64,000 nucleotides of DNA from a virus: positions 1 through 64,000 of the IMG/VR virus record IMGVR_UViG_3300009503_000018; one strand, 5' to 3'. The position numbers and the translations under genes were made by a program. A model generated the notes under the pieces. That model had not been told where the DNA came from. It worked only from the letters and a program-made list of their open reading frames with translations, and did no database searches. Positions 33,679 to 52,776 of the stretch are shown here, one piece after another. How positions within the stretch are numbered: the first letter of the stretch is position 1; each line of letters opens with the position of its first letter.

Positions 33679-33707
33679 AGAATATCAGGATTGATGATCA
33701 ATGTCAA
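33679..33707 (-). promoter_or_regulatory. Sigma70-type promoter, conserved-spacer family
   Basis: TTGACA, 17-base spacer ttgatcatcaatcctga, TATTCT. It drives the 56-residue gene. The spacer resembles that at 42141. Confidence 0.75.
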
Positions 33708-33786
33708 TAATCTTTGGCCTGTGCGTAAAACATATAGGAAGACATAGCGCTTGGATCGGCACAGACCGAGGACCATCCTCGGCGTA

Positions 33787-34200
33787 CTATTTCCACTGAA
33801 TGCCGGCTCGAAATACCGGCATGACTTCGTACCGGAATTGTGGGCTTAAATGTATTACACAATGATAGGTAAATCCCGCATTTGCAATGCGCCGTAGAAC
33901 AGTATCCGCCCATTCCTTTTCTTTGTCGTGCTGTGGATCAATTAGTAACAGAAAGTACACATCCTGATAAATCACGCGCAGAGCATCGAATGCTTTTTCA
34001 AGTCGGGGAAGAGTAAACACGTTCGGATATTCACCACCATATGGATCACTGTCATCGAGCAGAATTTCGTATTGTCCTATAATTTCATTTTGAAAAACTG
34101 ACGACAAATCCACTTCTTTATACAAGAGCCGACCATGTGGAATAAACACAACGCCCCGAATATGTTCTTTTTCTTTTTTTGAGTCCTTCAGTAGTAGCAT
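33787..34200 (-). CDS. Unknown protein
   Basis: This 137-residue mixed alpha/beta protein has GVVFIPHGRLLYKEVDLSSV at the N terminus and VYFLLLIDPQHDKEKEWADT in the middle. It starts one base after the GNAT gene ends, so the pair is co-expressed. The alternative frame at 33704-33913 is rejected as a shadow. No family is recognised. Confidence 0.65.
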   Translation of the reverse strand: MLLLKDSKKEKEHIRGVVFIPHGRLLYKEVDLSSVFQNEIIGQYEILLDDSDPYGGEYPNVFTLPRLEKAFDALRVIYQDVYFLLLIDPQHDKEKEWADTVLRRIANAGFTYHCVIHLSPQFRYEVMPVFRAGIQWK

Positions 34201-34201
34201 C

Positions 34202-34627
34202 TTATAACTTGTGCTCCACGTAATGTCCGACGACGCAGTCGTACCCGCGCTCCTTCGCCGCCTCTAGTGCTTTAGCCCGTAGCTTGGCGGATACACCCGA
34301 ACGGCGCCAAATGTGCGCAACGAACGTGCCCCAGTCGTAACAAACGCGCTTCGCGCACCAACCCGGCGCCGCGCTCTCGCCCCACAGAATATATCCCACG
34401 ATCGCGCCACATGGCCCCATTTCCGCAATGAACGTCGGCTCGCCGCGTTGCGACCATTCGAGGCCCATCTTCCACAGCCGATCCACGTTTTCGTCCGTCG
34501 GCGCCAGGAGGAATCGGAATCCGTCTCGCGCTGCCTCTTCGAGACATGCACGGATCATCGACTTGAGGATAAACGAGTCTTCGGGCCGCCACGGACGAAT
34601 GTTAATCACTTGTGCCTTCTTAGCCAT
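34202..34627 (-). CDS. GNAT-family acetyltransferase
   Basis: This 141-residue protein follows the GNAT order: INIRPWRPEDSFILKSMIRA (N-terminal strand-helix), PTFIAEMGPCGAIVGYILWG (central sheet), FVAHIWRRSGVSAKLRAKAL (acetyl-CoA pyrophosphate loop, R-R-S-G-V/A) and AAKERGYDCVVG. GNAT enzymes transfer acetyl groups to amines of proteins, peptides or small molecules. The leader and the first residues MAKKAQ are shared almost exactly with two plus-strand genes at 40.4 and 40.7 kb. Base composition is more GC-rich than the neighbours. Confidence 0.85.
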   Translation of the reverse strand: MAKKAQVINIRPWRPEDSFILKSMIRACLEEAARDGFRFLLAPTDENVDRLWKMGLEWSQRGEPTFIAEMGPCGAIVGYILWGESAAPGWCAKRVCYDWGTFVAHIWRRSGVSAKLRAKALEAAKERGYDCVVGHYVEHKL

Positions 34628-34742
34628 AAGGGTCTCCTTTGTTAACGGGAAAGCCTATCATACACGGGTTCGTGAATTTTGTCAATGCGCGAGTGCTATG
34701 TTTATGCCTATAGCTGCCGTAGCAAGTAGTGAATCACACTAT
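34622..34742 (-). repeat. Promoter-leader cassette, copy A
   Basis: About 120 bases including TTGACA (34680-34685), spacer aaattcacgaacccgtg, TATGAT (34657-34662), the leader, GGAGACCCTTATG and the first codons are nearly identical to 40320-40417 and 40563-40707. Copies A and C also share the upstream agtgtgattcactacttgct, the 3' end of the 69-residue gene at 40401. Confidence 0.9.
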
Positions 34743-34867
34743 ATACAGTTAACTTAACTAACCCAGTTTTGGAATGCCTTGAGGATTCTCGTAGCGTACC
34801 ACTTGATACAGTTAACTTAACTAACCCAGTTTTGGAATGCCTTGAGGATTCTCGTAGCGTACCACTT
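34741..34867. repeat. 62-bp tandem duplication at a gene's 3' end
   Basis: The end of the 94-residue gene (tacagttaacttaactaacc through gtagcgtaccacttgata) is repeated immediately downstream of its stop, with no change seen. The duplicate carries the last codons and the stop but no start, so it is untranslated. Confidence 0.9.
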
Positions 34868-35101
34868 GATATCTATTGACGATTGTTCCCACTCATACCA
34901 TTCTTTGGCATCAGCAACTAAATCTTTAACTTTTTCTAACAACTGTTGATCAGTCAGCAAAGCCCAATTACCGAGTTTTTTCAAGACTCTGACGGCATAC
35001 CATTTGAGGTCTGGTGACGAGCGTTCCCATGTATACCATTCGTCGGCATCAGTGACCAAATCTTTAACGCGCCAGCGCAGTCCTTCAAGGTCATTTTCCA
35101 T
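34817..35101 (-). CDS. Internally duplicated helical protein
   Basis: This 94-residue protein consists of two copies of a 36-residue unit: RVKDLVTDADEWYTWERSS...NW and KVKDLVADAKEWYEWEQSS...NW. Each unit is a helix-turn-helix of Trp/Tyr-rich amphipathic segments. It directly follows the 65-residue gene. The function is unknown. Confidence 0.7.
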   Translation of the reverse strand: MENDLEGLRWRVKDLVTDADEWYTWERSSPDLKWYAVRVLKKLGNWALLTDQQLLEKVKDLVADAKEWYEWEQSSIDIKWYATRILKAFQNWVS

Positions 35102-35299
35102 TTATTCCTCCGAACGACGGACTAGTTCAAACCAGTTTCCGCGAGCGTATCCAAATGCGCGACCGTCCGTTGTCTCGGCATACGCGGTTTTGTTTTCTTC
35201 ATCGTAAAAAAGCAGCGCCGCATATTCATTTTTTGATAACCGCCGGTCGAGCGTTGTCATGAGCGCTCGTTCGACGGGGAATCGAATGATTTTTGACAC
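35102..35299 (-). CDS. Small unknown protein, GTG start, MSKI leader
   Basis: This 65-residue protein starts GTG (VSKIIRFPVERALMTTLDRR) behind AAGGAGAAATCAC. The middle LSKNEYAALLFYDEENKTAY has strands, plus a possible LSKN tag. The leader and first codons match those of the clamp gene (35370-36149). No family is recognised. Confidence 0.65.
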   Translation of the reverse strand: MSKIIRFPVERALMTTLDRRLSKNEYAALLFYDEENKTAYAETTDGRAFGYARGNWFELVRRSEE

Positions 35300-35369
35300 G
35301 TGATTTCTCCTTTACAATCGAGTATACGGAAAAGGAACCCATGTATGACAAATACGCCATCTTCGGAAG

Positions 35370-36149
35370 TCACAATTCCAATTTTTCCAGCACGGGCATG
35401 AGGACGTAAGTGAAGCGCGGATCGCGCGACCCACGGATAACCACGGGACTGGCGTCGTCCGTGATCCCAATCGAAATGATATCGTATGCCGCATGGAGGC
35501 GCAACACATCGGTCAGGTGGCGCGTGTCGAACGCAATGGTGAGCGGCCTTGCGTCGTAACGTATCGGCAGCGCGCTGGCTTGCGGATTCGCGTCCGGCAC
35601 AACGTCGAGGCGGCCGTGGTCGAAGTGCAAACGGACGGTTGGGGAGTGCTTGGGATAGAGACGATATAAGGCGTCGAGGAACTCTTCGCACGGGACCTCA
35701 GCGGTTATACCATGAGGCTTTGGGATGGCCTCATGGTACGGAAAGGTGACATCGCGCAGCACGGGCAAGACGATGATGGAAGTGCCGTCGGTCGTCCGCA
35801 CGTCAAGGCCGCGGTCGGTCAGCGCAAGGGTCATTTGAGCGTCCGACCGGCCACCCACGAGTCGCTCGTGTAGGTCGGCCAGCGGCTTGCGCGGGATAAC
35901 GAGCCCGGGCGGTAGATCGACGGCCTCGCAGTCCCGTTCAACGACGGCGAGCCGATACCCATCGCTGGCGACCAGGCGCAGCGCGCAGGGCGGTTGGGTC
36001 TCTATGAGGACGGTGCTCAGATAGGGACGTGCCGGATCACGCCCCGCAGCGAACAGGGTCCGGTCTAGCATTTCGCGGAACGTGCGTGCGACAATCCGTA
36101 CCGTAGGGGCCGCGTCCGTACTGTTACTGAGCGTCGTTATTTTTGACAC
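35370..36149 (-). CDS. DnaN-like sliding clamp, short (two-domain) form
   Basis: This 259-residue protein resembles the DNA polymerase III beta clamp by RLVASDGYRLAVVERD (the classic L.ATDG.RLA motif), IPRKPLADL and the C-terminal SPVVIRGSRDPRFTYVLMPV. Bacterial DnaN is about 366 residues with three domains per monomer; here one domain is absent. A shorter clamp may trimerise, as T4 gp45 does, or may act as a decoy; both are inference. It has a GTG start with GGAGAAATTAC and a promoter at 36181-36209. The gene is clearly GC-richer than its neighbours, which suggests transfer. Confidence 0.75.
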   Translation of the reverse strand: MSKITTLSNSTDAAPTVRIVARTFREMLDRTLFAAGRDPARPYLSTVLIETQPPCALRLVASDGYRLAVVERDCEAVDLPPGLVIPRKPLADLHERLVGGRSDAQMTLALTDRGLDVRTTDGTSIIVLPVLRDVTFPYHEAIPKPHGITAEVPCEEFLDALYRLYPKHSPTVRLHFDHGRLDVVPDANPQASALPIRYDARPLTIAFDTRHLTDVLRLHAAYDIISIGITDDASPVVIRGSRDPRFTYVLMPVLEKLEL

Positions 36150-36180
36150 GTAATTTCTCCTTCATTCATTCGCTATATTG

Positions 36181-36209
36181 ACTTTACCCGGATTAGCGAA
36201 TTTTGTCAA
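36181..36209 (-). promoter_or_regulatory. Promoter of the clamp gene, conserved-spacer family
   Basis: TTGACA, 17-base spacer aaattcgctaatccggg, TAAAGT. The spacer is nearly that of 40276-40304 and 41149-41177. Confidence 0.75.
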
Positions 36210-36264
36210 TACGCAAATGCTATGTTCTCTTAGCAGCCTCCCCGGTACGTAGATGTGATCAGCG

Positions 36265-36969
36265 TCAACTCAGCGACGGGCTTGAAGACTTCTCCGTATG
36301 TGGGTTATTATTGAGTACTGTCGTTTTTCCCTTGGAACCGGGCTTCGGTTTTGCTGCCATAATATTGTTAATTTCCGGCGTGTACTTTCCAGTCTTGGGA
36401 TTGAGCTTATTCTCGATCACGAGCCGACATTCGCGACCAATGACGGTATCCTTAAAAAAAGGAATAGAAAGCTTCAAGGCATTCAACGTCTTCACCAACT
36501 TGGACTGTGAATCGAAAGTATATCGGGTATACCAACTTAGTACGCCCTTGTCTTCATGACCAATTAGGACAAAATCCCAACGAAATCCCGAATACTGATC
36601 TACTAACACAACCCGTCCAGATTGCGGCTTATTCCCTTTAAATACAGAGCTATCACGCTCGAATTGAACATTGACAACAATCGCTAAATACGTATCATCG
36701 TCGAGGCTGCCCTTAAAAAGGGGGTTGTGCTTGTACTTATTGCAAAATTTCGCTTTGAATTCGTTTTCAATACGGGATCGCCAAAGCTGACGGCGAACGA
36801 CATCTCCCCGCGTATGAGCCAAAGCACACTGTAGTTCAGTAGCGAGTAGGGCAGACCGATCTTCTTCGGATAGTGGCGATTTGACAATATCATCAAAATA
36901 TGATATGGCATTTTGCCGTCTAATATCGAATAGCTTATCGGCGGGTCGTTGTACAGTTTTGGTCGCCAT
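36265..36969 (-). CDS. Unknown protein, possible DUF669-like or single-strand-DNA-binding protein
   Basis: This 234-residue protein has a helical N-terminal half. The C-terminal half reads VIGRECRLVIENKLNPKTGK-YTPEINNIM, a pattern like small phage DUF669/SSB-type domains, and a Lys/Ser-rich unstructured tail. An AAAGGAG site precedes the ATG. The call is tentative. Confidence 0.55.
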   Translation of the reverse strand: MATKTVQRPADKLFDIRRQNAISYFDDIVKSPLSEEDRSALLATELQCALAHTRGDVVRRQLWRSRIENEFKAKFCNKYKHNPLFKGSLDDDTYLAIVVNVQFERDSSVFKGNKPQSGRVVLVDQYSGFRWDFVLIGHEDKGVLSWYTRYTFDSQSKLVKTLNALKLSIPFFKDTVIGRECRLVIENKLNPKTGKYTPEINNIMAAKPKPGSKGKTTVLNNNPHTEKSSSPSLS

Positions 36970-37002
36970 TTTTTTCTCCTTTTCTATTGCTTATATAAAT
37001 CT

Positions 37003-37031
37003 TACTTACCATAGTCGGTAATCAATTGCAA
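37003..37031 (-). promoter_or_regulatory. Weak promoter of the 36265-36969 gene
   Basis: TTGCAA, 17-base spacer ttgattaccgactatgg, TAAGTA. Spacing and spacer are like those of other members, though both hexamers are off consensus. Confidence 0.5.
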
Positions 37032-37198
37032 GTACCCCCTGTTGTCCGCAATGCGGTTTCTTTCTTCGCGGTTGTGGCGTGCGGCCTAGCGGAGTTGCGT
37101 CATGTTTCTACCTTATTCCTAATTCCTATCTTCTTCCTGCCCAGATTTCGCACGCGGCGCGCATCGGATCGTCAGAAAGCAAGAAAACGAACCGGGAT

Positions 37199-37363
37199 TC
37201 AATCTGGCTCATCACACAACGGACACACCAGCGCACGACCTTCGTACCTCCAACCCGCCGGCAACAAACACATCGGTGGTCGGTCAAAGGCGCCGAGAAC
37301 GTTGTGCATAGTGACCCACCCACAGCGGTCGCAGACAAAGCGATACTCAATGTAGATCGGCAT
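37199..37363 (-). CDS. Small zinc-ribbon protein
   Basis: This 54-residue protein MPIYIEYRFVCDRCGW ... ALVCPLCDEPD has two CxxC pairs (residues 11-14 and 47-50) and an AAGGATT site. A plus-strand frame over the same bases is rejected. It is a likely small zinc-binding early protein. Confidence 0.75.
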   Translation of the reverse strand: MPIYIEYRFVCDRCGWVTMHNVLGAFDRPPMCLLPAGWRYEGRALVCPLCDEPD

Positions 37364-37422
37364 GATCAATCCTTCTATCTCTTTTATTTTCCAATACTTA
37401 TTTCCAATTTTTTACCATTTAT

Positions 37423-37689
37423 CTATTTGAAATTCTTACGATTTTTGTGGCCTTTGCTATCCTTTTTCCCCTTTTCTTTTGTTACTAAATCCAATTTTTT
37501 CGCCAACCTTTTCTGAATTGTAATTTTCAATTCCGTTTTTCGTACCGGGATGTGTATCCCAATAGAACGACCTTTTCGGTCGATAACGTCAAAAATGTAA
37601 TATCGAGGATTCACTGTTTTATAGACTCGGAATTTACAAAATCGACCTTGGATTTCAACTCCGGGTTGGAATTTATGCGAAAACTGCAT
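37423..37689 (-). CDS. Small basic protein
   Basis: This 88-residue protein has a barrel-like N-terminal part (GVEIQGRFCKFRVYKTVNPR ... YYIFDVIDRKGRSIGIHIPV) and a highly basic C terminus. It may bind nucleic acid. It overlaps the start of the upstream gene's stop region by 17 bases. Confidence 0.65.
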   Translation of the reverse strand: MQFSHKFQPGVEIQGRFCKFRVYKTVNPRYYIFDVIDRKGRSIGIHIPVRKTELKITIQKRLAKKLDLVTKEKGKKDSKGHKNRKNFK

Positions 37690-37909
37690 ATGGGATAATC
37701 TCCCCTGTTATGATATTGCGAAATCTAAAAGAAAAAATGCAATCCTTAACGCGACCGCAACGGGCGCGGACAATAGACACACAATCTTCGAGAGTACATG
37801 GGTTCATTGGAATCCCATTACATCCACGCCGACAGTTTTCATGATACCACGAATCTTCAGTCACAGTCCACCGCCCCGCTTCGGTGTAAATGTCAATAAC
37901 CCATTCCAT
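37673..37909 (-). CDS. Small-paralogue family member C
   Basis: This 78-residue protein starts MEWVIDIYTEAGRWTVTEDS and ends FRFRNIITGEIIPYAVFA. It has an internal CRRGC-type Cys pair. It is the first of three tandem copies (37.7-38.5 kb) that share WYHENCRRGC/WFRNSCRHGC, the TLEDC/SLEEC helix and the RFRNI.TGEIIPY ending. The function is unknown. Confidence 0.75.
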   Translation of the reverse strand: MEWVIDIYTEAGRWTVTEDSWYHENCRRGCNGIPMNPCTLEDCVSIVRARCGRVKDCIFSFRFRNIITGEIIPYAVFA

Positions 37910-37912
37910 GAC

Positions 37913-38161
37913 TTATACGAAAAGCTCATAGGGAATGATTTCTCCCGTTTTGATATTGCGAAATCTCCAATACGGAGCGCACTTTCGTTTGTTACGAACC
38001 ACGACTAAACACTCTTCGAGAGAATGTGGCTTCATTGGAAGCTGATTACATCCATGCCGGCAGCTATTGCGAAACCACGAATCTTCAGCTACACCCCAAT
38101 TGAGATTACCCTGATCGTCGTAGTCTCGTATTTCGATAATCCACTCCCTCTTTTGTCTCAT
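37913..38161 (-). CDS. Small-paralogue family member D
   Basis: The start is taken at MRQKREWIIEIRDYDDQGNL (38161) behind CAGGATT; an earlier Met would overlap the upstream gene. This 82-residue protein is a close copy of members C and E, with HSLEECLVVVRNKRKCAPYW and RFRNIKTGEIIPYELFV. The function is unknown. Confidence 0.75.
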   Translation of the reverse strand: MRQKREWIIEIRDYDDQGNLNWGVAEDSWFRNSCRHGCNQLPMKPHSLEECLVVVRNKRKCAPYWRFRNIKTGEIIPYELFV

Positions 38162-38171
38162 AATCCTGGCG

Positions 38172-38462
38172 TTAATAAACAGTACTTCCCGCATCAACGA
38201 AAAGCTCATAGGGAATGATTTCTCCCGTTTTGATATTGCGAAATCTCCAATTAGGAGCGAGCTTTCGTTTTATAAGAACCACGGCTAAACAATCTTCAAG
38301 AGAATGTGGCTGCATCGGAAGATTATATGCCCAAGCAGACTGGCAAATTCGACGGGTTTTACATCCATGCCGGCAGCTATTGCGAAACCACGAATCTTCA
38401 GCTACCATCCACTGTCCCGCAGTGGTATAAATGTCAATAACCCACGATTTGCTTTGTCTCAT
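38172..38462 (-). CDS. Small-paralogue family member E
   Basis: This 96-residue protein starts MRQSKSWVIDIYTTAGQWMV and has an extra insertion (KTRRICQSAWAY) compared with member D. The C terminus RFRNIKTGEIIPYELFV is identical at protein level to member D and nearly so at DNA level. A GTAGGATT site precedes the ATG. The gap 38463-38623 holds only short overlapping hydrophobic frames that I cannot support. Confidence 0.75.
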   Translation of the reverse strand: MRQSKSWVIDIYTTAGQWMVAEDSWFRNSCRHGCKTRRICQSAWAYNLPMQPHSLEDCLAVVLIKRKLAPNWRFRNIKTGEIIPYELFVDAGSTVY

Positions 38463-38623
38463 AATCCTACGTTAAGAAGCAAATGTGGAAGGCGCGGGTG
38501 TTCATATTTCGAAAAAGGATTTGGACGGTGAATAAGCAAGTAGAACAAAAAAAAGATTGCACCGGCTAAACACACAATATTGATAATTTTTTTTAACATT
38601 TTTAGTACAAACCGGGATGTCGT

Positions 38624-38953
38624 CTACGCTCGACGTGGACGGCCGCGATATTCGCGGGTGTCGCACTCGCCGGGATTCCTTTGCCACCCCATGTGAACCT
38701 CTACACGACGCATACCACATCGAGTGCATACCCATTCAAATCGGTACGTTGTCCCGCCAAGCGACCAAACGCCGGGGTTTGTATTGCAGCCGCCAACGAG
38801 TTTTACGTCATCGCTCCAGGCATGTTCTTCGTCCTCGTCCTTCGGGCATGGCGGCTCGTCCGCCCATGCTTCACAAATGCCATCCCCGCCACAACAAAAG
38901 TCGGTGGGATCATGGTCAATATCCCTAGTACAGTCATCGCAATAGTGAGCCAT
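38624..38953 (-). CDS. Zinc-binding small protein
   Basis: The start is taken at MAHYCDDCTRDIDHDP (38953) behind AGGAGGAAACGT. This 109-residue protein is acidic with Cys pairs (CDDC, DFCCGGDGIC, CTRCGMRRV) and a W..W-type end. It is likely a zinc ribbon/adaptor protein. It is co-expressed with the AAA+ gene 10 bases upstream. Confidence 0.75.
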   Translation of the reverse strand: MAHYCDDCTRDIDHDPTDFCCGGDGICEAWADEPPCPKDEDEEHAWSDDVKLVGGCNTNPGVWSLGGTTYRFEWVCTRCGMRRVEVHMGWQRNPGECDTREYRGRPRRA

Positions 38954-38963
38954 ACGTTTCCTC

Positions 38964-39932
38964 CTATGCTCCCTGCTTCCAGCACACGAGACGGGCAATG
39001 CGCTCAAACGTTTCTTGATCCTGCGAAGCCTTCAAGACATTCGCCAATTTCACGACGGTACGCAAAGAGACCTCGCGGAGCTGGGCCTGATGCGCTCGGA
39101 TGTATTCCAACACCGAAGCCCCTTGTTCCGGTGTAATCCCGAGATGTTCGACCATATCGGTCTTTTGCACGACCTGTTCAAGCCGCAAGAATAGCTCCTG
39201 AGCAGACCGCAGGTGCAGATCCAGATAATACGAGCGACTAAGTAGCGCCTCGATATGGGGGGCGAGTCGGCTCTTGAGCGATCGTTCGAAGTCCATGTTG
39301 GTCACGAAAATGACCGCGCCGTCGAACGTGAAAGAATTCGGCAAAATATTGCCGTTTTCATCCTTGAATCGGTATTCGCTCAACCAGGAGATGTGCCGGC
39401 TCTTTGTCGTATCCAGGGCGGTCTTGAGCATGTTGAGCGATGTTTCATCGCCAAAGATCGAATCACAATCGTCGAGCATCAGGATAGACGATGCCTCGCG
39501 CGAGTCATACAAGAGACCATACAACCCGCTCGCCCGAGCATATCCATGCACCACTCGGGTCTTGAAATTCCCCCATGCCGTTGCCGCGAGCAGCGCCCGC
39601 TCGATTGTGTACGTCTTGCCGATGCCGGGATTCCCGGCGACGATCAGCGCCCGATAATGCCCACGCAGCACCCCATAGGCCATGTCTTCGAGGGCATCGA
39701 ATCGTTCGGCAATTTCTTGCCGGAGTACCTCGACAGACTTCGTCTTGACCGGCTCGGGCGGGGAATCGGAGGAATCGGGGGCTGAATCGAAAGCATAGAC
39801 CGGATTTCGACCCCGAGACACACACCGGAGCTTCGGCACGGCCAAAGAGTGTTGTGCGCAATACGCCAGCAAATCGCTGCGCCGCACCGTCTTCCCAAAC
39901 TGATTCCTCAACGCGCAAAGATCAACCTTCAT
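38964..39932 (-). CDS. AAA+ ATPase
   Basis: This 322-residue protein has Walker A GNPGIGKT (about 98-105), Walker B SILMLDDCDSIF (about 147-158), sensor 1 AVIFVTNMDF and a C-terminal helical lid. The N terminus (1-60) is a small domain that may recognise a partner. The layout fits phage clamp-loader-like or remodelling ATPases. It is GC-rich like the clamp gene. The promoter is at 40018-40046. Confidence 0.85.
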   Translation of the reverse strand: MKVDLCALRNQFGKTVRRSDLLAYCAQHSLAVPKLRCVSRGRNPVYAFDSAPDSSDSPPEPVKTKSVEVLRQEIAERFDALEDMAYGVLRGHYRALIVAGNPGIGKTYTIERALLAATAWGNFKTRVVHGYARASGLYGLLYDSREASSILMLDDCDSIFGDETSLNMLKTALDTTKSRHISWLSEYRFKDENGNILPNSFTFDGAVIFVTNMDFERSLKSRLAPHIEALLSRSYYLDLHLRSAQELFLRLEQVVQKTDMVEHLGITPEQGASVLEYIRAHQAQLREVSLRTVVKLANVLKASQDQETFERIARLVCWKQGA

Positions 39933-40017
39933 ATCGGTTCCTTCAAGTCGAAGAAGTCATCAGCGTCGATGTGCTTTGCTCTTTGCTTAGGACTCACCTT
40001 ATTCTCCAAACTCTTTC

Positions 40018-40046
40018 ATAGTACCCCGTTTAATCGAAAATGTCAA
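40018..40046 (-). promoter_or_regulatory. Promoter of the AAA+ gene, conserved-spacer family
   Basis: TTGACA, 17-base spacer ttttcgattaaacgggg, TACTAT. It lies about 85 bases upstream of the ATG at 39932. Confidence 0.7.
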
Positions 40047-40249
40047 TACGGTCGGGCTTCCTTAACGGTTGGTGGATGCAGTACGCGGAACCACGACGGC
40101 GGGATCGCACGACCGGACCGTGCGTACTCAGCTTGTGCCGCGCGCAGATGCCATTCACACACTGCTACGCCGTGGACATCATAATGCCCGGGCGCCCAAC
40201 AGCGGCGGCCGTCTCGACGAGTCCAAGTACATTTCATGTAATGGCGCAT
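40043..40249 (-). CDS. Small zinc-finger protein
   Basis: This 68-residue protein starts MRHYMKCTWTRRDGRRCWAP and continues to GVAVCEWHLRAAQAEYARSG. Cys/His spacing C-x9-C...C-x2-H suggests a small zinc finger. It has a GGAGGAGGATAGCA site. The next gene's promoter overlaps its stop. Confidence 0.75.
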   Translation of the reverse strand: MRHYMKCTWTRRDGRRCWAPGHYDVHGVAVCEWHLRAAQAEYARSGRAIPPSWFRVLHPPTVKEARPY

Positions 40250-40275
40250 TGCTATCCTCCTCCCTGATTGTTCCT

Positions 40276-40304
40276 ATCATACCCGGATTAGCGAATAATG
40301 TCAA
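40276..40304 (-). promoter_or_regulatory. Promoter of the zinc-finger gene, conserved-spacer family
   Basis: TTGACA, 17-base spacer ttattcgctaatccggg, TATGAT. The ATG at 40249 lies 27 bases downstream of the -10 hexamer. Confidence 0.8.
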
Positions 40305-40342
40305 GAGGAATAATGAATAGGCATAAACATAGCACTCGCGCA

Positions 40343-40371
40343 TTGACAAAATTCACGAACCCGTGTATGAT
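40343..40371 (+). promoter_or_regulatory. Promoter-leader cassette, copy B
   Basis: TTGACA, 17-base spacer aaattcacgaacccgtg, TATGAT, followed by cgttaacaaaggagaccctt and ATG. The cassette covers about 40320-40417, and the sequence is shared with copies A and C. Confidence 0.9.
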
Positions 40372-40400
40372 AGGCTTTCCCGTTAACAAAGGAGACCCTT

Positions 40401-40610
40401 ATGGCTAAGAAGGCACAGACGATGTACAACTGGTGGCTAGCTCGACTCGAAGGGGACAAGGCAACTCCAGAGCAACATGCGCGGATTCTGGAGTTGGCCA
40501 AACAATTGAATAAGAATTATCCTGAAAAGGTAATTCTGGAAGCAGTCCAGAGCACAATGTGCAGAGAATTCGCTTATAGTGTGATTCACTACTTGCTACG
40601 GCAGCTATAA
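40401..40610 (+). CDS. Small unknown protein MAKKAQTMY, copy B
   Basis: This 69-residue protein starts MAKKAQTMYNWWLARLEGDK and continues as a helix pair. It has an AAAGGAGACCC site. The leader and first nine residues are identical to those of the next gene. A fragment of its 3' end is also present upstream of the GNAT gene at 34.7 kb. The function is unknown. Confidence 0.7.
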   Translation: MAKKAQTMYNWWLARLEGDKATPEQHARILELAKQLNKNYPEKVILEAVQSTMCREFAYSVIHYLLRQL

Positions 40611-40632
40611 GCATAAACATAGCACTCGCGCA

Positions 40633-40661
40633 TTGACAAAATTCACGAACCCGTGTATGAT
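40633..40661 (+). promoter_or_regulatory. Promoter-leader cassette, copy C
   Basis: Identical to copy B (spacer aaattcacgaacccgtg) and directly downstream of the 69-residue gene. It drives the deoxyribosyltransferase-like gene. The cassette covers about 40563-40707. Confidence 0.9.
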
Positions 40662-40690
40662 AGGCTTTCCCGTTAACAAAGGAGACCCTT

Positions 40691-41152
40691 ATGGCTAAGA
40701 AGGCACAGACGATGTACCAGATCACGATTGACGGATCGCCGCTGAACGTGCGGCGGTTGGACCGTGTTCCGCTTATCTACGTGAGCGGCCCGTTGACGAC
40801 GGGCCACATGCCAACGAACATCCGTAACGCGCTAGAAATCGCGTACATGTTGATGACAAGCGGCTACTCCGTCATTGTGCCGCACGAGCAAGCGCTGCTG
40901 ATGGAAGCGCTGTATCCGATGAGCTATGTGGAGCGGCTACGCTACAACTTCAAATGCCTCCTTGCGTGCGATGCGGTATACCGTATCAGCGGCGAATCGC
41001 GGGGCGCGGATTTGGAAGTGCGGTTCGCGGAGTCTCGCGGTATCCCCGTGTTTAGTCAGCTTATCGACTTGATGAAGAACGTACCGCCGGACAAGTACCG
41101 CCCGCGCGTCAAGGCAAACAGGAGAGTCAAGCCGACGACGCGGTGTGCTTGA
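40691..41152 (+). CDS. Nucleoside 2-deoxyribosyltransferase-like (DUF4406) protein
   Basis: This 153-residue protein has the family core: PLIYVSGPLTTGHMPTNIRN (N-terminal strand and loop), VERLRYNFKCLLACDAVYRI and SRGADLEVRFAESRGIPVF. These enzymes cleave or exchange deoxyribose-base bonds; DUF4406 members are common in phages, where the substrate is not known. GC content is high. The first residues MAKKAQTMY come from the shared cassette. Confidence 0.8.
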   Translation: MAKKAQTMYQITIDGSPLNVRRLDRVPLIYVSGPLTTGHMPTNIRNALEIAYMLMTSGYSVIVPHEQALLMEALYPMSYVERLRYNFKCLLACDAVYRISGESRGADLEVRFAESRGIPVFSQLIDLMKNVPPDKYRPRVKANRRVKPTTRCA

Positions 41153-41177
41153 CAAAATTTGCGAATCCGGGTATATT
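41149..41177 (+). promoter_or_regulatory. Promoter, conserved-spacer family
   Basis: TTGACA, 17-base spacer aaatttgcgaatccggg, TATATT. It overlaps the stop of the previous gene. Confidence 0.8.
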
Positions 41178-41197
41178 CTAAGTGAAAGGAGCTAATC

Positions 41198-41425
41198 ATG
41201 GGTCTTTGGACAGCCGCGAGTGACGTAGATTACGACACGGAGTGTGGAAACGGGGATTTGTGGGACAACTCCGATCATGCCGAGTTCGAGGCGTGGCTTG
41301 AAGACTCCGGGTTTTTGAGCATGCCGGAAGACGAAGCATGGGAAGAGTTTTTGCGCCAGCGGTGGGAAACGTCAGTTCCCTTTTCGAACGATGTCGATGT
41401 CGAAGAAGATGACATTGCTTTTTAA
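41198..41425 (+). CDS. Small acidic protein
   Basis: This 75-residue protein starts MGLWTAASDVDYDTECGNGD. It is very acidic (many Asp/Glu) with a Trp-rich core. A GAAAGGAGC site precedes the ATG. Small, acidic, early-promoter phage proteins are often DNA mimics or inhibitors; that is inference. Confidence 0.65.
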   Translation: MGLWTAASDVDYDTECGNGDLWDNSDHAEFEAWLEDSGFLSMPEDEAWEEFLRQRWETSVPFSNDVDVEEDDIAF

Positions 41426-41599
41426 TAAGAGGTCTATGAAGAAGAACAAATAATTCCAACGAAGCCGAAAAGATTCGTGTAGGTTGCTGAAGCGCTGCAA
41501 AGCCTATCTGAACCATTGCACAGCATCTGCGATTCGCTCGATAGCATTGCTGAGGTGGTGAAAGGCAAGAGTGAATCGGCGATTAGACGTGGCTAATGC
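41426..41599 (+). pseudogene. Possible gene remnant after the acidic gene
   Basis: The same frame continues past TAA TAA as VYEEEQIIPTKPKRFV, then TAG, then VAEALQSLSEPLHSICDSLD...KSESAIRRG and TAA. The second part has protein-like make-up but no start codon. It may be a decayed gene fused to or following the acidic gene. The rest of 41600-41690 is the promoter region. Confidence 0.3.
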
Positions 41600-41654
41600 G
41601 CTCAACAATGACTAGACGGCGCCGGACCAAGGAAAAGGCCATAGCACTTGCGTA

Positions 41655-41683
41655 TTGACAATATTTGAAAATCCGTGTAAAGA
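41655..41683 (+). promoter_or_regulatory. Promoter of radC, conserved-spacer family
   Basis: TTGACA, 17-base spacer atatttgaaaatccgtg, TAAAGA. The ATG at 41691 is seven bases beyond the -10, so the transcript may be leaderless. Confidence 0.65.
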
Positions 41684-41690
41684 TGAGGTT

Positions 41691-42119
41691 ATGGATGAGC
41701 TACGGATCGTTCGCGAACGCCGAAAGGGATATGGGCAGTGCCGTGTTGCCCGCGACCCTAAGGCGGTCGTAGAGGCATTCAAGGATCATTTTCAAAGCCT
41801 TGATCGTGAGCAAGTGATCGCCATTGTCCTAGACACGAAAAATCACATTCAGGGCTTTCACGTCGTTAGCACTGGTTCGTTGGATTCCTCAATCGTACAT
41901 CCCCGAGAAGTCTATAAAATCGCTGTACTGTCCAACGCTTCGGCGATTATTCTCGTCCACAACCACCCAAGCGGCGATCCGACTCCATCATCGGAGGACG
42001 TTTCTCTTACTCGGCGGTTGAAGCAGGCTGGTGACATTCTCGGGATTAAGCTGCTCGACCACATCGTCATCGGCGATGACACATATGTGTCAATTTGCGA
42101 AAAGTATGGTCTCGATTGA
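41691..42119 (+). CDS. radC: RadC-type JAB/MPN-domain protein
   Basis: The start is taken at MDELRIVRERR (41691). The 142-residue protein has the RadC signature HNHPSGDPTPSSEDVSLTRR and LLDHIVIGDDTYVSI, with metal-binding His residues. RadC proteins belong to the JAB family of metal-dependent hydrolases; their role in DNA repair is unproven, and they often travel with mobile elements. It has its own promoter with little or no leader. Confidence 0.85.
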   Translation: MDELRIVRERRKGYGQCRVARDPKAVVEAFKDHFQSLDREQVIAIVLDTKNHIQGFHVVSTGSLDSSIVHPREVYKIAVLSNASAIILVHNHPSGDPTPSSEDVSLTRRLKQAGDILGIKLLDHIVIGDDTYVSICEKYGLD

Positions 42120-42140
42120 TTGCTGATTGATTTCAGACTA

Positions 42141-42169
42141 TTGACATTAGTCATCAATCCTGGTATGCT
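42141..42169 (+). promoter_or_regulatory. Promoter, conserved-spacer family
   Basis: TTGACA, 17-base spacer ttagtcatcaatcctgg, TATGCT. It drives the 42222 gene and the genes that follow. Confidence 0.7.
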
Positions 42170-42221: not shown

Positions 42222-42437
42222 ATGGCAATTCAAAATGCAGTCCGGACTTTAAATGTTGAAGTCGCGTGCGAAGAAAATGGCGATTTTGTGGCACGTGTGC
42301 CCCAAGCCGACAGTACGTTCATTTTCATAGAAAAGTCATGGGAGGCGCTAATGCGCAAAATCGCAACGAAGCTCCGTCCATCAATTACAGAACCGGTGCG
42401 TTGTTCGTTTAATTTGCTTGTTTATCCCGCTGATTAA
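42222..42437 (+). CDS. Small unknown protein
   Basis: This 71-residue protein MAIQNAVRTLNVEVACEENG has strand-rich segments (GDFVARVPQADSTFIFIEKS). A GGGAGAAAAGAG site precedes the ATG. No family is recognised. Strong promoter upstream. Confidence 0.65.
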   Translation: MAIQNAVRTLNVEVACEENGDFVARVPQADSTFIFIEKSWEALMRKIATKLRPSITEPVRCSFNLLVYPAD

Positions 42438-46521: not shown

Positions 46522-46540
46522 GACAGAGAGGAGAATTGTT

Positions 46541-47164
46541 ATGAACAAGTTCGTAGTAAGTATAATTGTCGCCGCATTTTTATTTGGTACGGCAGCGTTT
46601 GGAAACGGAAATGGGAATGGAAATGGGAATGGAAATGGGAATGGAAATGGGAATGGGCATGGGGGTGATACTATATGCACACTAGAAAATGCGACGTTTA
46701 GTCCGGCTGAGGCCGTAAGTTTTTGTTCCCAATTGGACACTAATCTGTTGACTAATATTTGTCGTCCAGTAGTAACAGCGCATGTTGCAGATTACTGCGA
46801 GCCGTATATAAACACCGAAGTCGAGAACCGCATTAATCAGCGAATTGGTGATATTTCTAATTTCTGTGGCGGAGATGTTGATTTGACCAAAATTGCTGTC
46901 TATCTCGGCAGTATTTATCATATGTGTGCGCAAACTCAAAATGCGGCATTAAATACTTCTAGTGTGTGTGAAATGACTCAGAACACCTGTGCTCCAAACC
47001 AGACTGTTCATTGCCCCGATTTTCAGCCGATGTGCGCGAAATGGGTTAAGCGCCGTCGGAAGTTTTTTGTCGTCGACTCAGCGACTGGAAAAAGAGTTCC
47101 TGTTGTTGATAATATGACTTTTTGTGTAAAGTGGGTTAAGCCCGCAGTGATACCTGTCCCGTAA
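46541..47164 (+). CDS. Secreted Cys-rich protein with Gly-Asn repeat
   Basis: This is a 207-residue protein. Residues 1-20 (MNKFVVSIIVAAFLFGTAAF) are a signal peptide. A (GN) repeat of nine units follows, from a 12-base repeat ggaaatgggaat, then H-G-G. The mature part has about 14 Cys (for example CTLENATF, FCSQLDTNLL, ICRPVV, YCEPYI, FCGGDV, VCEMTQNTCAPN) in a disulfide-rich extracellular pattern. It is likely exported and could be a host-modifying or virion-surface protein. A GAGAGGAG site precedes the ATG. The promoter is not obvious. Confidence 0.7.
   Translation: MNKFVVSIIVAAFLFGTAAFGNGNGNGNGNGNGNGNGNGHGGDTICTLENATFSPAEAVSFCSQLDTNLLTNICRPVVTAHVADYCEPYINTEVENRINQRIGDISNFCGGDVDLTKIAVYLGSIYHMCAQTQNAALNTSSVCEMTQNTCAPNQTVHCPDFQPMCAKWVKRRRKFFVVDSATGKRVPVVDNMTFCVKWVKPAVIPVP
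46600..46661. repeat. Gly-Asn coding microsatellite
   Basis: About five 12-base units of ggaaatgggaat (imperfect at the ends) encode the (GN) stretch of the exported protein. Copy number is likely to vary in relatives. Confidence 0.9.
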
Positions 47165-47190
47165 GGAGTAGTACTTTCTTCGCTAATAGC

Positions 47191-47238: not shown

Positions 47239-47332
47239 TTCTGTCCTTCGTGGGTTCAAGCTGTAAGAGGTGGGGGTTTACTATTCGGTCTCAGAGGTCC
47301 GACGAGAACGATAAAAAGGAACAAGGAACTAA

Positions 47333-47449: not shown

Positions 47450-47493
47450 GCTATATCGCGATGTGCCGGACCAAACAGAAATACTAAACAACG

Positions 47494-47940
47494 TCAATGA
47501 GGAATTACCTTCATTATACCGCACGGGTATCTCATAAATCGGACATTTTTCCGCACGACTTTTTTGCCGGACCACAAAGTCGGAATATTCTCATGCACTA
47601 GCTCGCGAGCGTCGTTTATATAGTATACTTTTTTGACGCCGTAGTCTCGAAGCATAGCAAAACACGCCTGACACGGTCGTGAGGTTGCCAAGAGTCCCGT
47701 CCGAGTAATCCGGACGACGAACATCGTCCCGCCTTTCGATTCCGACAAAGGAACTCCCAACAACGCATCTGCCTCGGCATGAATGGTCTTCCAGAAACAA
47801 TAGCTCTGTGGATGCGTTTTCGGCTGATTTGTACCGAATGAAACAACTTTGTTCCCTCGGGTTAGGACCGCACCCACATGATACTTGTGCGAAGACCGCA
47901 AAGCGGCCCTCTTTGCGAGTTCAACAAAACGCGTATTCAT
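47494..47940 (-). CDS. dCMP/cytidine-type deaminase
   Basis: This 148-residue protein has the zinc deaminase motifs IHAEADAL (His54, Glu56) and SRPCQACFAML (Cys90, Cys93). The layout fits dCMP or related deaminases that make dUMP for dTMP synthesis or alter base pools. Phages use such enzymes for nucleotide supply. It is divergent from terL with only 10 bases between the start codons. Confidence 0.85.
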   Translation of the reverse strand: MNTRFVELAKRAALRSSHKYHVGAVLTRGNKVVSFGTNQPKTHPQSYCFWKTIHAEADALLGVPLSESKGGTMFVVRITRTGLLATSRPCQACFAMLRDYGVKKVYYINDARELVHENIPTLWSGKKVVRKNVRFMRYPCGIMKVIPH

Positions 47941-47950
47941 AAAGAGTTAC

Positions 47951-50900
47951 ATGTTTAGGATGACATCAATATCTTCGGATGAAGTCGTGCCGGTAGAAGA
48001 CCCTTTTGCTTCTGATCCAAGTGTAGCACACATATTGGACAAAATCAAGAGCGCTGTTACTACCCGCTGTGATCGAGGTCTGCCGAAAATTACTCTAGCA
48101 CAGAACTTCAAACAATTCAAGAACATCATCCATTTCGTGACCGATCCAGAAGGACTCGCATTGAATACGCTATGGCATTTTAATCGGCAGTATCAGTACA
48201 TGCGGGATTTTTATTCGCTACTGTGTCCACAATGTAATAAGCCAGGTCCGAATCCCGAAGCCCCATTCGATTGTTGGGGAAAATCCGCCTTACAGCTCCA
48301 AGACGATGTGTTATTTGAAAAAAACGCGATGGGCGAATATCAATGCCCACAATGCGGTCTTTTGCAAAAAGACTCGGGACTACCGAACTATCGTGAAATG
48401 ATTGGAGTCTGTGGAATGCGCAGTGGCAAAACCATGCTCGCAGCGCAAATCCTGTTATACGAGCTTCATTGTGATTTACTCCTTAATGACCCACAAAAAT
48501 CTTGGGGTTTGGCGCCGGGGCAAGAAGTTTATTATTGCTTAAAAAAAGGCAGTCTCATCAATACTACACAAGGATATAAACCAATTGAAATTATTGGTGA
48601 AGGAGACGTTGTTATTGACAAAGACGGGAATGAAAATGTGGTAATGCAGGCCTGGGGAGAGGGTGTTCGTCCTATTATGGAAATTTCTTTGTACGGAGGA
48701 AAAAAAATATACGCCACCCCTCAACATACTCACCCCGTTTGGGCTTGGCCAAGATTATGTGCATGTGGATGTCGACGACCGGTTAATTCTGGTGTTTTAT
48801 ACGTGTCTGGACATAATTTTAATCGGCAGGTTGTAACGAAAAAAGCCGGCGCGACGATTACACAAGGTCATAACACATATCGGAATATCCCCTACGATTA
48901 TAATCCTTTTCAGCGCTTACGCACTGATGAACTACGAAAAGGTGATTATTTTCTTATTCCACGACATTTCAATGAAATCAAACCAAAACAACCAATTGAA
49001 TTTGCACGGTTGTTAGGATACTACATCGCTGAAGGAAATTCCGTTTCAAATCGAAAGGCCATTTACTTGAACTTTAGCGCTCACGAATATGAAACGTGGG
49101 CAAAAGATGCGGTAGACTTGGCGCGCGGGCTTTCCTTTGTTGCTTCTCGGAATGTACGATCTCCTCGATCACGTGTGTATATTGGATCCCAATCTTTAGA
49201 ATTATTTGAGTATCACGGTGGACGGTATTCTTCAAAAAAGCACTGTAGTGAAGAAGTAATGCGTTGGCCCCTCAAATATAAGCGTGAATTGATTATTGGA
49301 TTATTTCGCGGTGATGGAACACGAGGATATTATAAACGAAATAAAGACAAAAAAATATTTATGGTCCAATATACTACAACTTCTAAAATTTTAGCATTAC
49401 AAATTGAATTACTTCTGGCTCAACTCGGTTTTCCTTGTGCGGTATCGTGTGTTCACAAAAAGCTGCCGCGCCACGATTGTTATATTTTGCAAATTCGTGG
49501 AAATTTTGCTAAACAATTGGCACATATGATTTGGGGTGATGAATTTCCTGTTTTACCATCCAAGAAATGGAGAACCCAAGCGTGGGTAGACGACCAGTAT
49601 GTGTATATTCCAGTCCGATCTGTGAAGTTTGTTCCTTCCGATGAAGTATACAACATTACAGTCGATAATTCACATTCATATTTATGTGAAAACATTGCAA
49701 CTTATAATTCCGTTGCAACCACGAAAGGCGAACAAGCCAAAGACACGATTTTTGCCGCGATTGATGGCCTATTTACGAATTCTCCGTGGTTTACGCGCTA
49801 TGTCAATGCCCTTAAACATACAGCAAAAAACCAAGGAGTTCCTGTAGACAGCGTTTTCGTCAAAAACTTGTCGGAGATTCGCTTCTTGCACAAACAGCTT
49901 TTTGTGGATTTAACCGGCTCGAACTCGGCTGGCATAGCCGGAAAAACCCGAAAAGTGTGCGTTGTCGACGAAGTCGCGCGATTTATGGAAACCGAAAGTC
50001 GCATGGGTGTAGACGCTGTTTACGATACGCTCAAAGCGTCGCTTCTTACGCTTTCCAAATACGGATCGAAAATGATCTGTATTTCGTCTCCACTGTTCAA
50101 AACCGACAAAATCATGCGCCTCAAAGAAGAAGCACTCACAACGATAGAACACGCAAAAGCGGAGGGAAAAACCCCCTTTGTCCTCGTATTTCATCATGCG
50201 ACATGGGATTTTAATCCGAATATTAAACTAGAAGACGCATTTATTCAAGAAGAATTTCGGAAAAATCCTGTCGCAGCACGCCGAGACTTTGGTGCGGACC
50301 CTCCTGGGGCGTTAGATCCGTGGATCCCCGAGGAATCTTGGATTGATAGATGTGTAGACCCAGACATTACAAATCTCGTGTTCGTTCGCGATAGGACAAG
50401 ACCACGTCTATTGAAAGACAATGTCACAACAGTTGTGCAAAAAGATCTGGCGAGCATGGTCTTGGATGTGCCGACGACCCGACACATCACAATTGCCTGT
50501 GACCCAGGATATCGCAAAGACTCGTTTGGTATGGTCTTAGGATATACAAAGTTCACGGAAACACAGCGAGGGGGTGAGGAACATTTGTACGTGGGTGCCG
50601 TTCTTGTATGGGAACCCCGGGAAAAACCGCGAATCGAAGTTGATTTTGTGAATGTCCTAGACTGTATTCGTCGATTTGCGAAACATTGGATCGTTGACAA
50701 AGTGTATTATGACCAATGGCAGTCAATTTTTCAAATTCAACAACTTCGAGATGAAGGAATTGATACTGATCGAATATCCTTGGAACCAAAAGATTGGGAT
50801 TTGCTTGCAACGCTGATTTACAATCAGCAAATCCATTTACTCTCACCAGACAAAGGGGGGAAAGCGGCAGAACGGTTGCTTTGGGAACTCAAAAATCTTC

Positions 50901-51070
50901 AAATCAAAGACAAAGGCAGAGTAGACCACGCTTCGTATTCTTCCAGCGATTTGGCAGTTTGTTTAGCTCGTCTTGCAAAAGCTTTAGTAAGTCCTCAAGC
51001 GGGACGGAAAAAGACTTTGGATCAACGCTCGGCGGGGATTGCTCGGACCGTGCATTTGCGCCGACCGTGA
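47951..51070 (+). CDS. terL: Large terminase subunit interrupted by an intein
   Basis: The start is taken at MFRMTSISSDEV (47951); an earlier frame overlaps the deaminase gene. The spliced protein would be about 648 residues. Walker A is in CGMRSGKT and Walker B in KTRKVCVVDEVARFM. The nuclease Asp lie in CDPGYRKDSFG, YYDQWQSIFQ and DHASYSSSDLAV. The ATPase lies before the nuclease, as in other TerL. A zinc-ribbon pair (CPQCNK, CPQCGLL) lies near the N terminus, which is unusual. The intein (48536-49708) sits just before VATTKGEQAKDTIF. TerL packs DNA through the portal. Confidence 0.9.
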   Translation: MFRMTSISSDEVVPVEDPFASDPSVAHILDKIKSAVTTRCDRGLPKITLAQNFKQFKNIIHFVTDPEGLALNTLWHFNRQYQYMRDFYSLLCPQCNKPGPNPEAPFDCWGKSALQLQDDVLFEKNAMGEYQCPQCGLLQKDSGLPNYREMIGVCGMRSGKTMLAAQILLYELHCDLLLNDPQKSWGLAPGQEVYYCLKKGSLINTTQGYKPIEIIGEGDVVIDKDGNENVVMQAWGEGVRPIMEISLYGGKKIYATPQHTHPVWAWPRLCACGCRRPVNSGVLYVSGHNFNRQVVTKKAGATITQGHNTYRNIPYDYNPFQRLRTDELRKGDYFLIPRHFNEIKPKQPIEFARLLGYYIAEGNSVSNRKAIYLNFSAHEYETWAKDAVDLARGLSFVASRNVRSPRSRVYIGSQSLELFEYHGGRYSSKKHCSEEVMRWPLKYKRELIIGLFRGDGTRGYYKRNKDKKIFMVQYTTTSKILALQIELLLAQLGFPCAVSCVHKKLPRHDCYILQIRGNFAKQLAHMIWGDEFPVLPSKKWRTQAWVDDQYVYIPVRSVKFVPSDEVYNITVDNSHSYLCENIATYNSVATTKGEQAKDTIFAAIDGLFTNSPWFTRYVNALKHTAKNQGVPVDSVFVKNLSEIRFLHKQLFVDLTGSNSAGIAGKTRKVCVVDEVARFMETESRMGVDAVYDTLKASLLTLSKYGSKMICISSPLFKTDKIMRLKEEALTTIEHAKAEGKTPFVLVFHHATWDFNPNIKLEDAFIQEEFRKNPVAARRDFGADPPGALDPWIPEESWIDRCVDPDITNLVFVRDRTRPRLLKDNVTTVVQKDLASMVLDVPTTRHITIACDPGYRKDSFGMVLGYTKFTETQRGGEEHLYVGAVLVWEPREKPRIEVDFVNVLDCIRRFAKHWIVDKVYYDQWQSIFQIQQLRDEGIDTDRISLEPKDWDLLATLIYNQQIHLLSPDKGGKAAERLLWELKNLQIKDKGRVDHASYSSSDLAVCLARLAKALVSPQAGRKKTLDQRSAGIARTVHLRRP
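48536..49708 (+). mobile_element. Intein with DOD homing endonuclease in terL
   Basis: This 391-residue intein begins with Cys1 (CLKKGSLINTTQGYKPIEI) and ends NITVDNSHSYLCENIATYN before Ser+1. Endonuclease blocks are FARLLGYYIAEG and ELIIGLFRGDG. It is a clear sister of the portal intein (shared FARLLGYY[VI]AEG, YETWAKDA, WPL[KE]YKRE and ELLLAQLG). The penultimate residue is Tyr rather than His. Confidence 0.9.
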
Positions 51071-51219
51071 CTCGAAGACTTTTAAGGAATAAAACTGAAG
51101 AACTCCGAGTGAGGAATTCCAAGCCAATGCAAAATAAGATGTAGAATAGGAAAGACCAACGAAAGTCTCCACAGCCAACAACACGCGTGATTTTGAATAT
51201 TTTTTGTACAAATCCTCAT

Positions 51220-52190
51220 TTACGCTCTCTCCAAATACGTATTACTAACGACTTTGAGAATTACTCGTTCGCATTCAGGATGCCATCGTTCCTGCATTGG
51301 CTTTATGACGATACCTTCTCGGCAATGATTGGCTCCCGGGATAAGCGTATTTCCTTCAGCCAACGCGAGCATTCGATCATAGTCCATAGGGCAGCAATCT
51401 ACAATCGGCACCCACGGCAAATCCGGCCCTCCGAAGCTGTACAGATCTTTGGCATCTACCCATTGGCCATTATGCCAAATATCAAATACCGCAATATGGA
51501 CCTGTCCCGGCTTAGCCCCATAGCGCAGGTCTTGGACCCATCCGTAGACTTCACCGTACACAGCAGTCCCGGGATTCGCTCGGAGAAAGTCTTGCAAAGC
51601 TGGATACTGACGCAGCGCCTTCCACCACACCACATCATCCGCTTCGCTTTTCCATGTTGTCCGAGAGCCGGCACGAAACCGTCCATCCACATAGACCCAT
51701 CGCCCATTGGTTCCATGGATCTTCTCTGTTACTACAACCATTTCTCCAGACTCAAACACACTGCGCCCGTACTTTCGAAAAGACTCAATGTCGTATACAG
51801 GATAATGACCAGGGGGGGCCTGCTCGCATTTTCCGCAAGACGTGGATTGGACTCCGGCGGTTCGTAATGCACAATCCCAAGAACCTGTGTCATGTCTTCG
51901 CCGATTTGCGCTCCGGGAGGAGCCGGGACTAGGAGTCCGGCACTCCATTGCCCTCGCAAGCGTCGAGCTTTGATGCGCCGCTCGTCTTTGAGAAAGGCGA
52001 ATTCTGGTGTATCAGGGACGACGTTATCGGGCGGAATGTACACACCTCGATCCTTCCCGATCCAATCTTCGGTTCTGACCACAACTTGATAGCCTCCGCC
52101 GTAGATTTTCACGATCGAGAGACGATCAGCATTCGGGTGCGGCTCCAAAACCACAGGAACAACTTCTGCCTTGTGTGTACTACTGGCCAT
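51220..52190 (-). pseudogene. DraRnl-like RNA ligase split by a frameshift
   Basis: Two frames together make one ligase. The N-terminal part (starting MASSTHKAEVVPVVLEPHPN at 52190) is an OB-like domain (VVVRTEDWIGKDRGVYIPPD, IKARRLRGQWSAGLLVPAPP) like that of Deinococcus Rnl (DraRnl). The catalytic part in the other frame has the nucleotidyltransferase KxHG motif in VVVTEKIHGTNGRWVYVDG, AVYGEVYG and CREGIVIKPMQE. The frames meet at a run of seven C (plus-strand G at 51812-51818); one extra C would restore a single frame. It may be a sequencing slip, a real mutation, or programmed frameshifting. DraRnl-type enzymes seal 3'-OH/5'-P breaks in RNA. Confidence 0.8.
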
Positions 52191-52341
52191 GTCGCTTCCT
52201 TTTGATCTTAAGACGTTTGTCTAATTCGTCCATGTTCTTACGCATTTCAGGATCGTTATCCGCATGGCGGACGATTACGCGCTTCTTTGTCGAGTCGTAG
52301 TACGAACTACAAACCAATCGGCGAGGTTTGATATTCATCAT
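52180..52341 (-). CDS. Small basic protein
   Basis: This 53-residue protein MMNIKPRRLVCSSYYDSTKK ... ends KRLKIKRKRHGQ. It is basic and overlaps the RNA ligase start by 11 bases. The AAGGAAG inside it is the ligase ribosome-binding site. The function is unknown. Confidence 0.6.
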   Translation of the reverse strand: MMNIKPRRLVCSSYYDSTKKRVIVRHADNDPEMRKNMDELDKRLKIKRKRHGQ

Positions 52342-52380
52342 ATGTTACTGCAAAGTCTGAGAGAATTTCCCAAGCACGCG

Positions 52381-52641
52381 CTACTCTGTCACATACCTTT
52401 GTTTTAGGGGTTGCCATATGTCTTTTAGGACCCACGCAACCGCGCTACACCTTTGCAGGATGTCGTTCACAACCTCTTGCTGCGGATATTCGGTCAACAC
52501 GATCCCCAGCACCATCAGTACTTTGAGCGTTGTTGCAACGTCTCGCGGGAGTTCCGCCGGTAGGTTTCCGTCGTGTCGTTGGAAGAATGCCGCGAGTTCG
52601 GCGATATCGCGCCGCATCATTTGCCTATTGGTTTGTGTCAT
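52381..52641 (-). CDS. Small helical protein
   Basis: The start is taken at MTQTNRQMMRRDIAELAAFF (52641), which has an AAAGGAAGG site; the longer open frame runs into the promoter. This 86-residue protein is helical (TTLKVLMVLGIVLTEYPQQE) and of unknown function. Its promoter is at 52748-52776. Confidence 0.65.
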   Translation of the reverse strand: MTQTNRQMMRRDIAELAAFFQRHDGNLPAELPRDVATTLKVLMVLGIVLTEYPQQEVVNDILQRCSAVAWVLKDIWQPLKQRYVTE

Positions 52642-52747
52642 AAAATAAACCTTCCTTTCGGCTACCTCTTTCTGACGGGTTTTGCGAGCAATTGCATTCA
52701 GCCGGCCAAACGTCGCCATTGTGTCAAGTCCGTTCGAGTCAAACTTG

Positions 52748-52776
52748 AGAATACACGAACTGTCGGCAGAAGTCAA
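52748..52776 (-). promoter_or_regulatory. Promoter of the 52381-52641 gene
   Basis: TTGACT, 17-base spacer tctgccgacagttcgtg, TATTCT. It lies right after the RNA-ligase remnant at the end of rmlB. Confidence 0.65.

Follow-up and report, generated by a model that had tools for sequence, protein, structure and literature searches.

A set of promoters in one large uncultured phage shares, besides the two hexamers, a strongly conserved spacer, and the family has at least nine matching members. The 29-base element TTGACA-WWATTCGCN-AATCCGGG-TATNNT, with a spacing of exactly 17 bases, is common to 10 of the 12 sites listed in the original prediction. As a rule the spacer sequence of a sigma70 promoter can vary freely, and conservation of this strength in a fixed register therefore argues for a further recognition event there. 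We give about an even chance to the reading that this is a coordinated sigma70-type promoter family, probably early, whose conserved spacer is the putative site of one regulator overlapping RNA polymerase. The window analysed here consists of the first 64,000 bases of a virus record of 139,527 bases, and the remainder of the record was also retrieved and scanned.

The listed promoter sequences were all found where they had been placed, and family members do lie on both strands as predicted. The coordinates listed for minus-strand sites are those of the low end, which is the -10 end; named instead by the first base of TTGACA, the ten sites are 33707-, 34685-, 36209-, 40046-, 40304-, 40343+, 40633+, 41149+, 41655+ and 42141+. 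All ten (the sites from 33679 to 42141) have TTGACA, an exact 17-base gap and then a -10-like hexamer. On the minus strand, the promoter at 33679..33707 (TTGACA-ttgatcatcaatcctga-TATTCT) has its -10 23 nt before the ATG of a 56-aa ORF, that at 34657..34685 (TTGACA-aaattcacgaacccgtg-TATGAT) precedes a GNAT acetyltransferase-like gene (34202-34627), and that at 36181..36209 (TTGACA-aaattcgctaatccggg-TAAAGT) precedes a sliding-clamp-like gene (35370-36149). The marginal member at 40018..40046 (TTGACA-ttttcgattaaacgggg-TACTAT) precedes a 22-codon ORF, by way of which it serves an AAA-ATPase-like gene (38964-39932), and the promoter closest to the consensus, at 40276..40304 (TTGACA-ttattcgctaatccggg-TATGAT), precedes gene 40043-40249. 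On the plus strand, the promoters at 40343..40371 and 40633..40661 precede gene 40401-40610 and the nucleoside 2-deoxyribosyltransferase-like gene 40691-41152, respectively, both of whose products begin with MAKKAQTMY. They are followed by the promoters at 41149..41177 (TTGACA-aaatttgcgaatccggg-TATATT; upstream of gene 41198-41425), 41655..41683 (TTGACA-atatttgaaaatccgtg-TAAAGA; upstream of the RadC-like gene 41691-42119) and 42141..42169 (TTGACA-ttagtcatcaatcctgg-TATGCT; upstream of gene 42222-42437). The predicted combination of TTGAC[AT] with a 17-base gap holds for these ten, always as TTGACA, and for 52748..52776 on the minus strand (TTGACT-N17-TATTCT), while 37003..37031, also on the minus strand and upstream of gene 36265-36969, has TTGCAA and lacks a good -35. 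The spacers of these last two sites are unrelated to the motif, and both were rejected as family members; 37003 has a matrix score of 1.5 and 52748, despite its hexamers and 17-bp gap, a score of 11.0, compared to 27-42 for members.

The spacer motif is thus present in ten of the listed sites and absent from two, being clear in nine of the ten and marginal in 40018, whose spacer-only score is -0.2 when the site is left out of the training, a value that 3205 genome windows equal or exceed. The spacer consensus first proposed fits well only at 36181, 40276 and 41149. What is robust across the family is a core consisting of AA at spacer positions 10-11 and C at position 13 (each in 9/9 independent sites) and C at position 14 (8/9), followed by a G-rich stretch. 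With regard to the hexamers, these are sigma70-type promoters, with a TTGACA-like -35 and a TANNNT-like -10 placed 17 bp apart, inside the 16-18 bp range of such promoters, upstream of genes; the -35 is TTGACA in all nine independent sites, and the -10 of 41655 is TAAAGA.

That the spacer is conserved beyond the needs of sigma70, as the original prediction had it, was borne out. The nine independent spacers, a set in which the three copies of a duplicated cassette are counted once and one member is marginal, contain 19.8 bits of information, compared to 4.8 +/- 0.9 bits after shuffling of their letters, and none of 20,000 shuffles came as high. Random upstream 17-mers from the same phage gave 4.8 +/- 0.9 bits with a maximum of 9.7, again with none of 20,000 draws at the observed value; these draws and a set of T4 promoters served as controls in place of a pool of bacterial promoters that yielded too few sites. 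The mean identity between pairs of sites is 0.76 over spacer positions 10-17 and 0.26-0.32, the chance level, in the flanks, so that the conservation is separate from the flanks, and its register is constant among members. Spacer positions 10, 11, 13 and 14 carry 1.6-2.1 bits each, while positions 3-5 of the -10 carry 0.1-0.7 bits. Since these spacer bases outrank part of a hexamer that sigma itself reads, something other than sigma is probably reading the spacer.

A scoring matrix trained on the eight non-copied window sites was scanned across the whole record. The ten window sites scored 27-42, and an additional member outside the window, at record position 95203 on the plus strand and upstream of gene 95251-95844, scored 34.2 although it was absent from the training; the next hit scored 14.9. 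In leave-one-out scans of the record with the full matrix, each member ranked about 13th or better among all windows. A survey of the 117 TTGACA in the record gave the same set, with 11 of them followed by a spacer matching the consensus at 10 or more of 17 positions, and these are exactly the promoter sites. All eleven have a -10-like hexamer starting with TA at 17 bp, compared to none of the nine next-best listed. The training sites had been chosen in the original prediction with the spacer in view, a bias against which the recovery of 95203 and the TTGACA survey guard only partly. Among gene-proximal TTGACW-N15-19-TANNNT sites in the record, most of those with 17-bp spacing carry the motif, with 94263 on the plus strand as a clear exception. 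The spacer of this promoter (TTGACA-gaacaacatgttccagg-TATACT), a neighbour of the member at 95203, holds the sequence GAACAACATGTTC, a dyad that is almost perfect and recalls a LexA-type site.

An origin of the likeness in chance or in the reader's selection among ordinary strong sigma70 promoters is very improbable and was rejected on the shuffle and upstream 17-mer controls, neither of which reached the observed information in 20,000 attempts, and on the recovery of 95203 outside the training set. Exact-pattern scans of public collections, which found 5 viral and 29 genome stretches, at about chance or modestly above it by our own estimate of the expectation, are what such an origin would predict, and many of these matches resemble ordinary promoters. 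Recent copying is a more substantial matter, since three of the sites (34657, 40343 and 40633) are one cassette of 110-133 bp in three near-identical copies. The segment 34611..34743 on the minus strand, comprising promoter, leader, ribosome-binding site and the first codons (MAKKAQ), is complementary at 99% to 40575-40707, and the segments 40317-40427 and 40607-40717 share 99% identity. Because the copied cassette spans promoter, leader and first codons, three different proteins (34202-34627, 40401-40610 and 40691-41152) have the MAKKAQ start in common. Some of the promoters have also spread through copying of the promoter-leader cassette, and it could be argued that shared ancestry is all there is, with a promoter copied around the genome and spacers that are alike from too little time. 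Some further likenesses fit this, as the upstream sequences of 36181 and 41655 each match the cassette at 14/20 positions and one another at 16/20, and the spacers of 33679 and 42141 match at 14/17. However, 36181 and 41149 match at 15/17 positions in the spacer but at only 4/20 upstream and 8/40 downstream, and variable -10 positions are interleaved with conserved ones. Removal of the cassette copies, named in the original prediction as the test that could overturn it, left the spacer conserved; the six sites that share neither cassette nor flank contain 21.7 bits, compared to 7.5 +/- 1.3 after shuffling (0 of 20,000 as high). Bases beyond the hexamers are thus common to several promoters without copied flanks that explain them. 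Because conservation remains without the copies, we reject cassette copying as the full explanation, and shared ancestry alone appears improbable.

The main rival to a bound regulator is tuning for RNA polymerase, in which the spacer would be conserved because it helps the host enzyme (perhaps modified, or with an unusual host sigma) to bind or open the promoter and so to outcompete host promoters, without a separate regulator. We consider this possible, if on the unlikely side. It would account for the fact that the motif is always accompanied by a -35 and a -10 at a fixed spacing, and there is precedent in the extra consensus regions of T4 early promoters, which may optimise the interaction with host RNA polymerase (PMC2988021), and in some unrelated environmental phages that have spacer-conserved promoter families of their own. 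On the other hand, the conserved AATCCGGG differs from the extended -10 (TGn), which is present in only 2/9 sites, conservation in the spacer exceeds that in part of the -10, and the information in the T4 early-promoter spacer is 6.4-7.3 bits, compared to 19.8 here.

The T4 figures come from 13 sites in 45 kb (6.4 bits; 7.3 +/- 1.1 in nine-site samples), and the comparison is approximate since the T4 set was obtained by pattern search and not from mapped starts. A T4 review describes regions of consensus in the early promoters in addition to the established elements (PMC2988021), and the early-promoter motif is a different one in each T4-like phage (PMC1524935). The likeness to the present family is that sigma70-type promoters with consensus -35 and -10 occur phage-wide upstream of scattered early genes and carry a consensus, specific to the phage, that goes past the hexamers (PMC2988021, PMC1524935). 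The conservation in T4, however, is in the UP region, a GTTTAC -35 and TGn, without the AATCCGGG core, and the present sites are not of that type, with TG at -15/-14 in 2/9 and a -35 of TTGACA in 9/9. Staphylococcus Kayvirus 515A1 has 58 sigma70-type early promoters with TTGACW, a 17-bp spacer and TATANT, but the extension reported there is the known TRTGN beside the -10 and not a full conserved spacer (PMC7698491). In cluster A mycobacteriophages (L5, TipsytheTRex), the operators and stoperators are likewise many asymmetric sites, there for a single regulator, with some in promoters and oriented with transcription; they differ in that they are also found between genes away from promoters and that the repressor is known (PMC9283540), whereas here a spacer-only scan of the record found the motif only inside promoters.

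Also similar are unrelated environmental phages (e.g., L044, L048, L050 and L042), which have repeated sigma70-type promoters with a conserved spacer of their own, such as TTTACA-TTCGTTTAGAATCAGTG-TATTCT, although the spacer sequence and the phages are different. These genomes were retrieved through a distant RNA-ligase homologue, and some of the promoter copies in them may be recent duplicates. Such promoters were seen in L042, L044-L046, L048, L050 and L051, and several in L042 show AATAGTA-TAGATT-ACTATTATA, with a dyad around the -10. The kind of family is therefore not unique and is already known from other phages, while the conservation in the present one is, as judged from sequence comparison, unusually strong. 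Relatives carrying the same promoters were looked for by protein searches (AAA-like, clamp, RNA-ligase, portal and 36265-36969), which gave only distant homologues or short relatives of 98-99% identity that, from their length and match position, we infer to stop outside the 33-42 kb region. Pattern scans of viral and bacterial collections gave no relatives carrying the promoters, and a BLAST search with the element against annotated phages gave none either. The portal and terminase have no close match in any annotated phage, and Virus Rctr197k, which gave the best match to the portal (47%), had no site above the threshold anywhere in its record. A literature search on repeated promoter spacers turned up no paper bearing directly on the matter.

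Under the reading that we prefer, in which a regulator occupies the spacer, the consensus -35, the -10 and the 17-bp gap between them would be read by host RNA polymerase, while the conserved WWATTCGCN-AATCCGGG would be the site of one sequence-specific protein between the two hexamers. This protein and RNA polymerase would either exclude or contact one another, so that all of the genes served are switched together, and the likeliest version of the regulator would be a phage-encoded shut-off repressor. That the element is an operator for a regulator from phage or host, as the original prediction proposed, is plausible; the spacer conservation speaks for it, the symmetry is weak, and Pfam and PHROGs scans revealed no recognised DNA-binding repressor among the part of the phage proteins that was scanned, most phage proteins being without a family. 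The scans gave one match to a WYL domain, not pinned to a protein. A weak dyad, ATTCG|CNAAT, is centred in the spacer (arms of 5 bp match at 67%, with z 3.7 among centres) and would fit a dimer, but the core AATCCGGG is asymmetric. One candidate regulator, to be taken as a lead only, is the 102-aa product of 30130..30438 on the minus strand, for which a single-sequence model is winged-helix-like (pLDDT 73) and has a PadR-family regulator as its best Foldseek match (E 7e-3). The predicted structure of the 36265-36969 product (pLDDT 41) was uninformative. The spacer-only scan of the record found no convincing copy of the motif without a -35, the one high isolated match, at 102476, looking like chance, and a promoter-independent operator was rejected for this reason. 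More tentatively, an as yet undescribed regulator encoded by the phage may read an asymmetric AATCCGGG-containing site that always lies between -35 and -10 and switch the dispersed genes of an early regulon all together. If so, spacer-embedded operators with other sequences would be a widespread and little-described layer of phage gene control.

The promoters probably serve scattered early genes, the timing being taken from gene content only; the genes served encode the sliding clamp and the RadC-like, nucleoside deoxyribosyltransferase-like, GNAT-like and AAA-like proteins, alongside small unknown ORFs, a content that suggests early expression. The distance from a member to the start codon downstream of it is about 10-50 nt, in most cases with a ribosome-binding site, and the members form a divergent block with minus-strand sites from 40304 leftwards and plus-strand sites from 40343 rightwards, apart from the lone site at 95203. 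At the centre of divergence, the 40276 and 40343 promoters point away from each other, their -35 ends 38 bp apart. In this way a regulon of an uncultured phage, with its clamp, RadC-like and nucleotide-metabolism genes and small unknown ORFs, can be defined from sequence alone, and the conserved element is a ready-made bait in the search for its regulator. Comparable families seen in unrelated phages suggest that a broad map of spacer-embedded control could be drawn from metagenomic phages.

Some other features of the window were noted in passing. Tandem diverged repeats at 31992-32682 and 37673-38411 resemble duplicated small genes, and a short 12-base tandem repeat at 46600-46663 encodes a glycine/asparagine run within 46541-47164. 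The terminase large subunit (about 1040 aa; 47951-51070) and the portal (1129 aa; 1617-5006) each have an internal stretch of the phrog_4645 endonuclease family, which suggests that both genes contain inteins.
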